Positions 2,989 to 20,989 of a DNA stretch of 22,215 nt are shown one piece after another. The stretch comes from a virus. Made by a program: the position numbers and the translations under genes. Numbering within the stretch: position 1 is the first letter of the stretch; each line of letters begins with the position of its first letter. A model generated the notes under the pieces. It made no database searches, had not been told where the DNA came from, and was given only the letters and a program-made list of their open reading frames with translations. Location of the stretch: IMG/VR virus record IMGVR_UViG_3300005613_000442, positions 1 through 22,215 of that record, one strand, 5' to 3'.

Positions 2989-3162
2989 TTAATTTAATTT
3001 CCTTTCTCTTTTATATCGTTTAATTAAAAGCATTTGAATTATATAAAAAGTTGCATTTATTTCAATCGTAAATTTACTATCAATACTTAATTCTTCTAAT
3101 TGTCTTTCGTATCGTGCAAGGCGATTGATAATCTTAATTATATTTTTATTATGCAATTTCAT
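2989..3162 (-). CDS. Small basic hypothetical protein (57 aa)
   Basis: Read by hand. It opens MKLHNKNIIKIINRLARYER, continues with helical segments and ends in a basic tail (LIKRYKRERKLN). It overlaps the upstream gene by 4 bases (ATGA) and sits 1 base from the downstream gene, so it is firmly part of the operon. The pI is high; nucleic acid binding is possible but not shown. Confidence 0.6.
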   Translation of the reverse strand: MKLHNKNIIKIINRLARYERQLEELSIDSKFTIEINATFYIIQMLLIKRYKRERKLN

Positions 3163-3338
3163 TTTTTATATAACTTATTCATTTTTATTCTTTGTTGTGT
3201 GTCGAGTTTTAATTTCTTACTTAACTTTAATAATTTTTGTAAGTATTCATCATCAACATCTTTATCTAAAGACTTAATTTCAATTTTAATTAGGTCTCTT
3301 AAAATACATTTTTCTACTGTACTAAATTGTTCAGTCAT
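3159..3338 (-). CDS. Small helical hypothetical protein (59 aa)
   Basis: Read by hand. It begins MTEQFSTVEKCILRDLIKIE, followed by a lysine- and leucine-rich helix (EYLQKLLKLSKKLKLD). The AAAAAGGAAAATAGAA leader supports the ATG. It overlaps both neighbours. No recognised family. Confidence 0.6.
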   Translation of the reverse strand: MTEQFSTVEKCILRDLIKIEIKSLDKDVDDEYLQKLLKLSKKLKLDTQQRIKMNKLYKK

Positions 3339-3922: not shown

Positions 3923-3934
3923 TAAGATTATATG
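3907..3934 (+). promoter_or_regulatory. Rightward promoter P1 of the RNA locus
   Basis: TTGAAA (3907-3912), a 16-base spacer, then TATATG (3929-3934). A 17-base block covering the -10 region (3922-3938, ATAAGATTATATGGGAA) is repeated exactly at the second promoter (4270-4286). The predicted RNA start is near 3941. Confidence 0.6.
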
Positions 3935-3940
3935 GGAAAA

Positions 3941-4090
3941 CAGTTTGATAATTTAAAGCCTATAAAACGCGAGAGTGTTTATTTAAACTATCTTAATAGA
4001 TTATAACAATAGGATATTAATCTAACGCGGGTTAAATTTAACCTTTATTTTCCTGTAAGGTAGTCGTCTCGAAAGGGGCGACTACTACAA
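3941..4090 (+). ncRNA. Structured leader RNA with GNRA hairpins
   Basis: Downstream of P1 the + strand folds into several local helices. The pairing 3965-3970/3975-3980 is closed by a GAGA tetraloop and includes one G-U pair. There is a 7-bp helix 3997-4003/4018-4024 and a 14-base palindrome at 4030-4043. A 12-bp hairpin at 4059-4086 has a GAAA tetraloop (4071-4074) and G-U pairs. The G-U pairs and GNRA loops favour RNA made from the + strand. No T-run follows, so the 4059-4086 hairpin is not a standard terminator. The segment leads into a short ORF at 4107. A 5' untranslated regulatory leader or a separate small RNA are both possible. Confidence 0.55.
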
Positions 4091-4106
4091 GTTGAAAGAT
4101 AAAATT

Positions 4107-4265
4107 ATGTTCGTATTCAAACACCCAAAATATTATTCAGAATTAAAAAAGAACAAACCACAAGCACAAGCGACAGGCGGGAAAGAAGAAAAAGAAAAAG
4201 AATTAGAGAAAGACACAGGCGAGAAAAAAAATAAAAAAAATTTAAAAAAGACTATTGACATTTAG
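4107..4265 (+). CDS. Possible short lysine/glutamate-rich protein (52 aa)
   Basis: Read by hand. It begins MFVFKHPKYYSELKKNKPQA and then becomes almost entirely Lys, Glu and Asn. The ribosome site is weak (GAAAG about 12 bases before the ATG). The reading frame contains CACAAGCGA-type words (4165, 4214) and its stop lies just after the -35 box of promoter P2 (4255-4260). It may be a genuine leader peptide of the RNA locus or an accidental frame in purine-rich spacer DNA. Confidence 0.35.
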   Translation: MFVFKHPKYYSELKKNKPQAQATGGKEEKEKELEKDTGEKKNKKNLKKTIDI

Positions 4266-4282
4266 AATTATAAGATTATATG
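4255..4282 (+). promoter_or_regulatory. Rightward promoter P2 of the structured RNA
   Basis: A perfect TTGACA (4255-4260), a 16-base spacer and TATATG (4277-4282). The block 4270-4286 is identical to that of P1. The predicted start (about 4288-4290) coincides with the first base of an 11-bp hairpin, which strengthens the call. Confidence 0.7.
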
Positions 4283-4287
4283 GGAAT

Positions 4288-4846
4288 TATATTTATTATT
4301 TTATAATAAATATAGATTAGAGTGGTAAGCTATAAAGGGGTAGGCTTTTAAATTTTACCCGCTTAACTACTAGCAAGAGATAGCTACTTGTGAGTGCATA
4401 ATGTTCTATCAACAAGCCACTACTAATCGGTTAGTGAGATTGTCTTAAAATAAAATCTCATTTGCGAGGTTGCCTGTCGTTGCAACGATAAGGTAGGTTG
4501 CTCACTAATCAGATTGTAATGGTAAGTCGTAAATTGGTAGGCTTTTAAAATTAACCAGTTTAACATTTTAAATGTTATTTCAAGATGCCATTACTAATCA
4601 AGATGTGGTGCGTTCTTGACTAAAAGGTTGAATACAATAATTGCATCAAGTTCAACCCATTACATCATTGGTTGTTGGTAGTGCATTACCGACCTATAAG
4701 TCCTAATCGAGTAGGCACATCATTGGAACTCGCTTATAGGTGCAACCAAAAGGTGATACAGAAATCCTGTATTGTGTGAAGGCACAAGCTAAAATACTGT
4801 ATGAAAGGTGTGTTGGCGCTGAGTGGTAAAAGACCCAAGCGCCAAC
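4288..4846 (+). ncRNA. Large multi-domain structured RNA (candidate new class)
   Basis: No coding frame is convincing across this stretch, but helices abut one another on the + strand. They are: 4288-4298/4304-4314 (11 bp, loop TTTTA); module A 4315-4325/4417-4428 (11 bp, bulged A4422) enclosing 4326-4330/4361-4365 and 4338-4342/4356-4360; module B 4429-4438/4501-4510 (10 bp with a G-U) enclosing 4473-4480/4485-4493; module C 4512-4522/4588-4599 (11 bp, bulged T4595) enclosing the equivalents of A. Next come 4626-4632/4651-4657, a three-way junction closed by 4668-4673/4744-4749 with arms 4674-4693 and 4694-4739, then 4756-4761/4767-4772, and last 4812-4820/4838-4846. A and C are a diverged repeat: the loop GGTAGGCTTTTAAA is identical while pairs change in a compensatory way. 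The scale resembles GOLLD or ROOL phage RNAs; I cannot confirm identity. The 3' end is uncertain and may run into the terminase mRNA. Confidence 0.75.
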
Positions 4847-4861
4847 CTAAGCCACAAGCGA

Positions 4862-4898: not shown

Positions 4899-5426
4899 AT
4901 GCCAAATCCAAAAGGTCTACCAAAGAGACTAACAGAAATGCAAATGAAGTTTGCAAGAGAATTAGTTTTTAATGAAGGTCGAAAGACACCAAGAGAATGT
5001 GCTGTTGAAGCGGGTTATGAAAAAGATACTGCTCACGTACAGGCGAGTAGACTACGCAATCCAAAAATATTTCCATTAGTTGTTAAATACATAGGCGAAC
5101 TTAGAGAAGAAGTTCAAAAGAAATATGAGATTACTTATGAAAAACATATAGCTGAACTTGCAAAACTTAGAGATGAATCAAGAGATAAAAAAGCGTGGTC
5201 AGCGGCAATCAATGCTGAAGTCGCACGCGGAAAAGCGGCTGGCCTATATATAGACCAAAAGGTAATAAAATATGGGTCTTTAGACCAACTTACAGAAGAT
5301 GAATTAGAAAAGAAAATGAAAGATATTCTTAATGACCATAAAGTTCTAATGAATGGTAATGATTATATTGAAAGTGAAACTAGCGAAACTGATGAGACTA
5401 GTGAAACTGAAGAAACTATAGAGTAA
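4899..5426 (+). CDS. terS: Terminase small subunit
   Basis: A 175-aa protein of the phage small-terminase type, which binds the packaging start site and hands DNA to the large terminase. The N-terminus carries the helix-turn-helix DNA-binding region LTEMQMKFARELVFNEG...AVEAGYEKDTAHVQASRL (about 11-53). This is followed by the coiled oligomerisation region with the typical ITYEKHIAELAKLRDES (about 79-95) and VARGKAAGLY (about 109-118). The C-terminus is an acidic Ser/Glu/Thr repeat (SETSETDETSETEE), likely flexible. There is no Shine-Dalgarno before the ATG and a promoter lies immediately upstream, so the mRNA may be leaderless. It stands alone: the next gene is on the other strand, its end overlaps this one by 11 bases, and no large terminase is in the window. 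Confidence 0.85.
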   Translation: MPNPKGLPKRLTEMQMKFARELVFNEGRKTPRECAVEAGYEKDTAHVQASRLRNPKIFPLVVKYIGELREEVQKKYEITYEKHIAELAKLRDESRDKKAWSAAINAEVARGKAAGLYIDQKVIKYGSLDQLTEDELEKKMKDILNDHKVLMNGNDYIESETSETDETSETEETIE

Positions 5427-17401: not shown

Positions 17402-17953
17402 CTATTTCCGGCTGATTTTAGTTTCATCCTTCACAAACGTGTGAAAGATATCGGAAGGCATATCAAGGCCGGCCTCGATACGCTCCCGATATAGAGCTTT
17501 CAAAGTCATTGGCTCAACTTTTTCTTTTTGTTGAGGCTCAAATCCATTTGAAGCTGCAAGGTCTAGCATTTGCTTCGCCTTGTTGTCTTCTCCACGACCA
17601 AAACTTACAGCAACCTCATTTTTAATAAGATCACCTAAGCCATTGTCACGAAGCCATTTATACGCTGATGCTTTTTTCTGTAAGTCTTTTGGTATTGTAC
17701 AACTATATTTTTTATTTATTTCTATAGTTGAACCATCAGCAAGTTTCAGAGATTGTAATCCTTGTTCTGATAAGATGTTAGGAATTACTTCTGAACTAAT
17801 TTTATCGTATTGTTTTTTAAGTTCTTTAGTTTTTTCTTCAGACATTTCTATCTGTTTTTCTAAGTCTAGTAACTTAATGCACTGATTAGATAAAGATTCT
17901 AAATCAGTTTTTTCGACTATGTTTTGTTTATCTTGTTCAAAGTCTATACTCAT
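17402..17953 (-). CDS. Conserved phage replication-region protein (183 aa)
   Basis: N-terminal coiled coil (about 20-60, DLEKQIEMSEEKTKELKKQYD), then a middle domain with LADGSTIEI and YKWLRDNGLGDLIKNEVAVS, and a C-terminal helical domain with MTLKALYRERIEAGLDMPSD. I recall phage proteins with this WLR-NGLGDLIKN core near DNA polymerase or SSB genes, none with a proven function. It lies 11 bases upstream of the SSB-like gene and is probably co-transcribed; a role in protecting or organising DNA ends is only a guess. Confidence 0.6.
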   Translation of the reverse strand: MSIDFEQDKQNIVEKTDLESLSNQCIKLLDLEKQIEMSEEKTKELKKQYDKISSEVIPNILSEQGLQSLKLADGSTIEINKKYSCTIPKDLQKKASAYKWLRDNGLGDLIKNEVAVSFGRGEDNKAKQMLDLAASNGFEPQQKEKVEPMTLKALYRERIEAGLDMPSDIFHTFVKDETKISRK

Positions 17954-17955
17954 TT

Positions 17956-18363
17956 TTATCCTTTCTGGTAGAGATCGAATGTTATTGGATAATATTTAGC
18001 CTCTCTTCGATCCCATTTCAAGAGGTTAAATTTGCCATTGGTTTGGTCACTTACGATTGCACAAGACACTCCTATAATTGCAGGATCTCCTGTTAACAAT
18101 ACATAATCTGTTTCTTTAAAATCTCTTAAATTCTTTTTCATCTTAAACACAAAAGGTGATGATGAAAATATTATCTGAGAATCTGGGCCATAATTAGGCA
18201 TACATATAACTAAATAACCAAAGTCTGATGCACCTAATATATTTATATTAGCGGGTGGATGTTGTAATACATAAACAAAATTTTCATTAGGGTTTTCTTT
18301 TTGAAATTGCAAAAACTCTTGTAAAGATTTTGGTTTATATAATTCAAATATTTTATTTTTCAT
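17956..18363 (-). CDS. Hypothetical protein (135 aa)
   Basis: Unrecognised. It has an N-terminal helix (LQEFLQFQKEN), then a mostly beta core (FVYVLQHPPANINILGASDF, YVLLTGDPAIIGVSCAIVSD) and a C-terminal strand-rich end. There are no obvious catalytic residues. It starts 10 bases inside the upstream small gene and stops 2 bases before the next, so it is firmly in the operon led by the promoter at 18535-18562. Confidence 0.6.
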   Translation of the reverse strand: MKNKIFELYKPKSLQEFLQFQKENPNENFVYVLQHPPANINILGASDFGYLVICMPNYGPDSQIIFSSSPFVFKMKKNLRDFKETDYVLLTGDPAIIGVSCAIVSDQTNGKFNLLKWDRREAKYYPITFDLYQKG

Positions 18364-20044: not shown

Positions 20045-20443
20045 CTATTTAATCGTAATTTGTTTTGGTTTTTTAGATTCTGGTGGATTATACTCTAATT
20101 CAACATTGAGCATACCATCTTCTAATTTACCACCTACACATTCTACATAGTCTGCTAATTGAAATTGTCTTTTAAACGATCTCTTAGCTATGCCTTGATG
20201 TACGTAATTAGAAAGATCTTCTTTTGATTTACCTTCTATAATTAATATACCATCTTTTACTTCAACAGATACTTCATCTTTTTTATATCCTGCTAAAGCA
20301 AGTTCGATAACATACTTACCTTCAGAAGCCTTTCTTATATTGTAGTGTGGAAAACCAGAATTGACAGATGTAAGATAATTAAATTTATCAAACATATCTT
20401 CAAAACCGATTGCGTTATTTAGGAATGTACTTAGATTTGTCAT
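20045..20443 (-). CDS. hsp20: Small heat shock protein (Hsp20/IbpA type)
   Basis: A 132-aa alpha-crystallin-domain chaperone. After a short N-terminus (TFLNNAIGFEDMFDKF) the crystallin domain runs from YNIRKASEGKYVIELALAGY through KDEVSVEVKDGILIIEG, YVHQGIAKRSFKRQFQLADY and LEDGMLNVELEYNPPESKKP to the end. The IbpA-like HQGIAKRSFKRQFQLAD run is diagnostic. It holds unfolding proteins in an ATP-independent way; phage copies are known, especially in marine T4-like phages, where they may help virion assembly. A perfect AAGGAGG site and a promoter lie upstream. Confidence 0.95.
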   Translation of the reverse strand: MTNLSTFLNNAIGFEDMFDKFNYLTSVNSGFPHYNIRKASEGKYVIELALAGYKKDEVSVEVKDGILIIEGKSKEDLSNYVHQGIAKRSFKRQFQLADYVECVGGKLEDGMLNVELEYNPPESKKPKQITIK

Positions 20444-20498: not shown

Positions 20499-20526
20499 AA
20501 TATAATTATTATTTAAACTAAATCAA
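20499..20526 (-). promoter_or_regulatory. Candidate promoter of hsp20
   Basis: On the minus strand TTGATT (20526-20521), 16 bases and TATATT (20504-20499). The -35 lies inside the 3' end of the endolysin gene. It has the same TTGATT-N16 layout as the small-terminase promoter, so it may belong to the same temporal class. Confidence 0.55.
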
Positions 20527-20989
20527 CCGCTTTTCCGATAATAGGTTTATATTTAACCTTCTTATCTTCTCTATAAGCGTGTAAGAATTGTCTTCTGGGC
20601 TGGTATGGTATCCAACTTGCGTGAATCCATCCGCTGTTTGGCTCACCAGGAGTATAAAACTCCAAAATTAATTGATCTGTTTCTAAATATTTATGTATCC
20701 AATCGGCTAGTTCTGCGTTGTCTACACCAATTACTTCGAAGTCTGCGGCTTCAGCTTTGGCGTGCTGTGAGTTTTCTGAACTACCTATTGCTTTACAAAG
20801 TTCTGGACTTCTAAATCCACTAGTCACTTTTACTCTACCGAATTGATCCCGTACAGGTTGTAATACATTTTCACACAGTTGTTTTAATTTATCAATCTGA
20901 TCGCCATTGGGATTATTATCAATATTTAAACGGATAGCTGTATCCGATTTGATTAGCTCTTGAAGAGTAAAGTTTCGTGAAAGATTCAT
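20513..20989 (-). CDS. M15-family peptidase, probable endolysin
   Basis: A 158-aa zinc peptidase of the M15 (VanY/D,D-carboxypeptidase-like) group, here probably the cell-wall lysis enzyme. It shows VTSGFRSPELC (about 55-65), SQHAKAEAADFEVIG (74-88; zinc ligands His 76 and Asp 83) and GWIHASW (120-126; third ligand His 123). It has no signal peptide, so release would need a holin, and the adjacent membrane gene at 20989-21207 fits that. It shares one base with that gene. Confidence 0.9.
   Translation of the reverse strand: MNLSRNFTLQELIKSDTAIRLNIDNNPNGDQIDKLKQLCENVLQPVRDQFGRVKVTSGFRSPELCKAIGSSENSQHAKAEAADFEVIGVDNAELADWIHKYLETDQLILEFYTPGEPNSGWIHASWIPYQPRRQFLHAYREDKKVKYKPIIGKAVDLV

Follow-up and report, generated by a model that had tools for sequence, protein, structure and literature searches.

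The structured RNA locus upstream of the small terminase gene

The window, that is, the whole 22,215-nt stretch of DNA analysed here, is a 22.2-kb viral record whose phage genes include those for the small terminase subunit (TerS), DNA polymerase, primase and helicases; no tRNA was found in it. Pfam matches also identified an HSP20-type small heat-shock protein gene at 20045-20443 and an M15-type peptidase gene at 20513-20989. The TerS gene (4899-5426, + strand; PHROG terminase small subunit, E 2e-12) is the downstream neighbour of a predicted structured RNA at 4288-4846 and lies outside it. Between 4265 and 4899 no ORF reaches 50 aa, in agreement with an earlier sequence-only reading of this DNA, which had seen no good ORF across the region. 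On the 5' side lies a putative promoter, P2 (4255-4287, + strand), with TTGACA at 4255-4260, TATATG at 4277-4282 and a AAGATTATATGGGAA box at 4272-4286. A generic sigma-70 scan does not single P2 out. Boxes of the form TTGACA..GATTATATRGGA were found in 60 of the 97 related upstream regions, often immediately 5' of structured RNA, and some of them precede other genes instead. A second AAGATTATATGGGAA box is located at 3924-3938, upstream of a leader with a hairpin at 4059-4085, after which comes a lysine-rich 57-aa ORF (4092-4265); leader and ORF together fold with a z of -3.0 relative to shuffles.

The region 4250-4860 has a minimum free energy of -167 kcal/mol, versus -139 +/- 5.5 for shuffled sequences (z -5.2), and the folding of 4288-4850 scores z -5.0 on the + strand versus -3.5 on the - strand, which is consistent with an RNA read off the + strand. 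On this strand the modules follow one another in the order hairpin-M1-M2-M3-M4-M5-core-M7. The 5' hairpin (4288-4314) is a perfect 12-bp helix of A and U only, and is identical in the close relative L001. It is followed by three abutting arms predicted by folding: M1 (4315-4428), closed by GATTAG/CTAATC, a bulge and six further base pairs; M2 (4429-4510), closed by the 10-bp helix GGTTAGTGAG/CTCACTAATC; and M3 (4511-4599), whose closing helix begins at 4512 and consists of GATT..AATC (4 bp), a bulge and 8 bp. M1 and M3 are diverged copies, because the segments 4314-4367 and 4511-4564 of the first and third arms are 78% alike; between their closing helices, AG/CU is replaced by GU/AC and G-C by A-U, two-sided changes that keep the pairing.

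M4 (4600-4667) contains an invariant 49-nt centre (4611-4659), and its outer stem spans 4602-4666 and is closed by GATGTGGTG/CATTACATC. The sequence-only reading had missed this stem; the hairpin that it placed at 4626-4657 is indeed present, but it is not free-standing, forming instead the middle of the larger module, where it competes with an alternative pairing. M5 (4668-4750) folds as a three-way junction (4668-4749). Between M5 and the 3' hairpin, a conserved core at 4751-4799, overlooked in that reading, runs as AGGTGATACAGAAANCCT, a hairpin and TAAAATACTG. It follows the form AGG(UGAUACAGAAAU)CCU, a variable hairpin and UAAAAUACUG, the 5' segment AGGUGAUACAGAAAUCCU preceding the small hairpin. 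As judged from its sequence, the core could form a pseudoknot via CAG/CUG; these pairs are invariant in the core alignment and are neutral on the question. M7 (4812-4846) is a 9-bp 3' hairpin with a GAGUGG..CCCAA loop, which is similar to the loops of the terminator-like hairpins of relatives; the T run is absent after it, and read-through into TerS is therefore possible. UGCA words occur at 4395, 4481, 4642, 4682 and 4741 (five, versus about two expected), several of them in predicted apical loops, and they are possible self-kissing sites. The proposal of a large structured RNA built from abutting helical modules is thus borne out by folding, with the helices at 4288-4314, the three arms, the 4668-4749 junction and the 4812-4846 hairpin correctly placed, and it was strengthened by comparison with relatives.

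Gain, loss and exchange of modules between close relatives

Two relatives, L001 (96.7-98.5% identical to the window over long alignments) and L002 (90.7% over 4.8 kb), could be compared with the window arm by arm. The three separate viral contigs carry three different module sets, and all the arms are still closed. M1 is missing from L001, with its flanks retained, and M2 is present there with GATTAG for GGTTAG in its clamp, a change of G-U to A-U that improves the pairing. In L001 the M3 position is taken by an unrelated arm that is closed by a 10-bp helix of its own (GATTGTAGTC/GACTATAATC). The L002 contig begins within M1, and the end of M1 is joined straight to M3, M2 and M4 both being missing. 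M3 is identical in L002, where its clamp is GAT-T-GTAATGG/CCATTACATC, with 10 bp kept and one bulge, and the L002 core bears a different arm, matched in L158 at 94% identity and in L159 at 87%. M5 is identical in both relatives, and M7 is also present in both of them as well as in L158/L167.

In 28 replacement events between relatives, the flanks of the replaced segment pair better than random positions do (p=1.7e-4, from 48 segments whose pairs are not independent). None of the differences observed between homologous phages was a helix-breaking substitution, the outcome that would have spoken against the helices listed in the sequence-only reading; they are module gains, losses and swaps in which the closing helices are kept. 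Metagenome assemblies could hold chimeras, and several independent assemblies agree here. At the level of sequence, these alignments show that whole modules come, go and are replaced like cassettes between close relatives.

Recurrence of modules in other marine phages

Some of the modules extend well beyond this group. M4 (4600-4666) is identical at 67 of 67 positions in L149, whose TerS DNA is 72% identical to that of the window, and a 17-base M4 pattern matched 11 viral contigs. Searches by exact pattern are biased towards conserved copies, and for this reason conservation within the search patterns was not counted as evidence; beyond the pattern, a further 32 bases are also invariant in the M4 copies that were compared, and the variation is confined to the outer stem. 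The copies lie in about six neighbourhoods, including those of phages with distant or undetected TerS. L276, L277, L278 and L279 contain M4 alone, about 40 nt 5' of the start codon of a gene beginning MKPIRKDELEF, a placement that is typical of cis-regulatory RNA and looks cis-acting. At about 7900 of L281 (reverse strand), M4 is followed by nine T, and L281 has no detectable TerS/TerL similarity to the group.

About 18 marine viral contigs contain the core, its inner hairpin varying between them. In L174, AGG..CCU is replaced by GGG..CCC, and of the five testable core pairs three changed on both sides. L159 contains the core motif twice in tandem (3006-3173), as if an arm had been inserted within another core copy, duplicating ATACAGAAAACCT. 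The core model R1 matched nothing in 75 further sources, and the core is therefore considered portable rather than universal. On genome contigs the core pattern had 13 matches, all judged to be chance, and a looser pattern gave many matches within coding sequence when applied to viral sequences. Searches of the phage collection with the RNA of the window, L163 and L193 returned TerS or chance matches only. M1, M2 and M3 were found in close relatives only, and M5 in no phage beyond L001 and L002. The core, M4 and M7, by comparison, are found in further phages, combined differently.

In most cases the core-bearing RNA is situated 5' of a GP88-like gene (Pfam PF17338 in L168 and HTVC027P). Fetching 80 relatives of this gene brought to light long arrays of further recurring modules. 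These included clamps such as CTGATCCCTGGTCC..GGACCTGGGATCAG; a frame, AAACACTATAACA..GTAGCATAGTG, in which the inner arm is exchangeable and comes in 17 distinct versions; a module, AATAAACCAGAACGGAG..GTGCAAAG; and a cleanly aligned module, GTCACACC..GTCTTC. In the last, all 12 of the 12 pairs showed two-sided change and 94.4% of the cells pair, while none of 500 shuffles reached the score and slid registers gave <47%. Abutting helices characterise the class as a whole: neighbouring clamps abut with a gap of 0 nt in 23 cases, versus about four for other short distances, across 97 regions whose background includes coding sequence. Counts of perfect 10-bp inverted repeats miss bulged clamps. 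Flanking genes and simple repeats dominated the automatic clustering of folded modules, and its output was left out of the analysis. In several relatives the RNA ends in a terminator-like hairpin with a T run before the next gene.

The Flavobacterium-1 RNA (RF02976) was recognised by its Rfam model as a module in 12 related loci, including HTVC027P, where it lies unannotated at 17753-17873 of MN698241.1 (L081 5902-6022) within an unannotated module array at about 17735-18135. HTVC027P is the sole isolate whose terS locus resembles that of the window in DNA sequence, and its RNA, used as a query against the phage collection, found only itself. The related genome 023Pt_psg01 also shows an array. 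Of the GP88-bearing records retrieved for HTVC033P and for Roseobacter and Caulobacter phages, the HTVC033P gap was folded, and no module array was recognised in it. The genes gp34 and gp33, just 3' of the HTVC027P array, are reported to be highly expressed early to middle in infection in a transcriptome paper that makes no mention of non-coding RNA (PMC12753301); this expression is consistent with activity of the HTVC027P promoter region. The assignment of the window RNA to a mosaic RNA class of HTVC027P-type Pelagibacter phages and other marine phages is well supported, and the window very probably encodes a real modular mosaic RNA gene.

Known families and candidate functions

In an Rfam scan of the window RNA nothing reached the gathering cut-off, and when about 48 related loci were included, Flavobacterium-1 alone did so. 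The sequence-only reading had likened the RNA to GOLLD and ROOL in scale and could match it to neither, a caution that proved right: the covariance models of GOLLD (RF02032) and ROOL (RF03087) gave no match in the window at the gathering score or even at E<=10. Like GOLLD and ROOL, the window RNA is a large, elaborate multi-helix phage RNA whose function is not known. It also shares with GOLLD a 3' part that is conserved and a 5' part that is less so (PMC12286853). Unlike GOLLD, it is made of exchangeable modules and has no tRNA in its window, and unlike ROOL its module content varies between close relatives. Flavobacterium-1 is a part of related arrays, but at about 121 nt it is a single block of larger RNAs, and its model found no match in the window. 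No description of such an RNA was found in the open-access literature, subscription papers and preprints being mostly outside the search. We could not match the mosaic class to a known family, and its novelty is relative to Rfam 15 and the open-access literature. A match of AGGUGAU to the 3' end of 16S rRNA was also weighed and left as unsupported.

The overall best explanation, which we favour tentatively, is a separately transcribed mosaic RNA that serves as a trans-acting scaffold of interchangeable binders; the multi-domain binding mechanism itself is put forward with slightly more reserve. The window would give rise to a separate structured transcript of roughly 560 nt, composed of the 5' hairpin, six self-contained modules including the pseudoknot-like core, and the 3' hairpin. 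As the comparison of relatives shows, modules are exchanged by recombination in or near the closing helices, so that each arm keeps its independent folding. During infection, the RNA may be a trans-acting scaffold whose binding domains are interchangeable: each near-invariant loop or pseudoknot would have its own host protein or RNA to bind or sequester, and the fast turnover of modules would mirror a changing set of host targets. Binding domains are proposed because near-invariant loops in variable stems resemble binding sites, and host targets because rapid module turnover between near-identical phages fits changing targets. It is conceivable, to a similar degree as the overall explanation, that marine phages share a pool of small conserved folded RNA cassettes and recombine them into long host-interacting RNAs. 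In such a combinatorial system the cassettes would be aptamer-like or pseudoknotted, an RNA counterpart of gene cassettes with a repertoire turning over between near-identical phages. The position of M4 ahead of a start codon in L276-L279, the lack of a T run after the window 3' hairpin and the confinement of M1, M2, M3 and M5 to close relatives count against the favoured explanation.

The same M4 copies make a cis-acting leader the strongest rival, although it is distinctly the less likely of the two. Here the modules would form a long 5' UTR, lying between an infection-time promoter and the genes that follow and acting on polymerase or translation, like the HK022 put RNA or a riboswitch. This would suit the location of the RNA in most relatives, with a conserved promoter-like box on one side and small genes and GP88 on the other, and the expression of gp34 and gp33 just downstream in HTVC027P. 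However, the gene that follows is not constant, being TerS in the window, TerL in L174 and GP88 in most relatives, several relatives have the terminator-like hairpin and T run before the next gene, and so many interchangeable modules exceed what a leader needs. An RNA-only assembly, that is, an oligomer or compact particle with structural or kissing arms, is unlikely. GOLLD and ROOL form nanocages (PMC12286853), and the window RNA shares their scale, phage origin, elaborate structure and lack of a known function and contains an excess of UGCA words that could self-kiss; nevertheless, neither covariance model matches it, and free arm swaps and a wide size range would hardly be tolerable for a fixed symmetric cage.

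The packaging role that the sequence-only reading had suggested, by analogy with phi29 pRNA, did not hold up against the relatives. A role in packaging or in regulating terminase, linked to TerS, would account for an RNA directly 5' of TerS in the window and for the packaging-gene neighbourhood in most relatives, but it is very improbable because about 1-2.4 kb, usually with other genes, separates the RNA from TerS in HTVC027P, L004, L149, L151 and L161. Moreover, the RNA of L174 is directly 5' of TerL, the position and content of the RNA are not conserved relative to TerS, no module is universal, and the Rfam pRNA model has no match in the window. We give the least credence to DNA-level elements, such as attC-like sites or MITE-/REP-like inverted repeats, in place of a functional RNA. 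As in integron attC arrays, the units are bounded by inverted repeats, here the closing helices, and are gained and lost like cassettes; however, the attC ends RYYYAAC..GTTRRRY were not found on either strand of the window, and the units are folded RNA modules without ORFs. Furthermore, in the loci read, recurrent modules all point the same way with respect to the gene downstream, the GTCACACC..GTCTTC module has conserved loops on covarying stems, and the + strand folds better in the window.

In the ocean, few hosts or phages are more abundant than SAR11 and the Pelagibacter phage group. Large phage RNAs whose function is not known pose a lasting puzzle. The window RNA evolves through the exchange of self-standing folded blocks, and natural swaps thereby separate its domains and provide a map for testing. 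The mosaic class and its evolution are well supported; the function proposed for it is a hypothesis that could be tested in HTVC027P on HTCC1062, a cultured phage and host with infection transcriptomes in which such an RNA is carried unannotated. Flavobacterium-1, an orphan in Rfam, gains a context as a block of a larger phage RNA.
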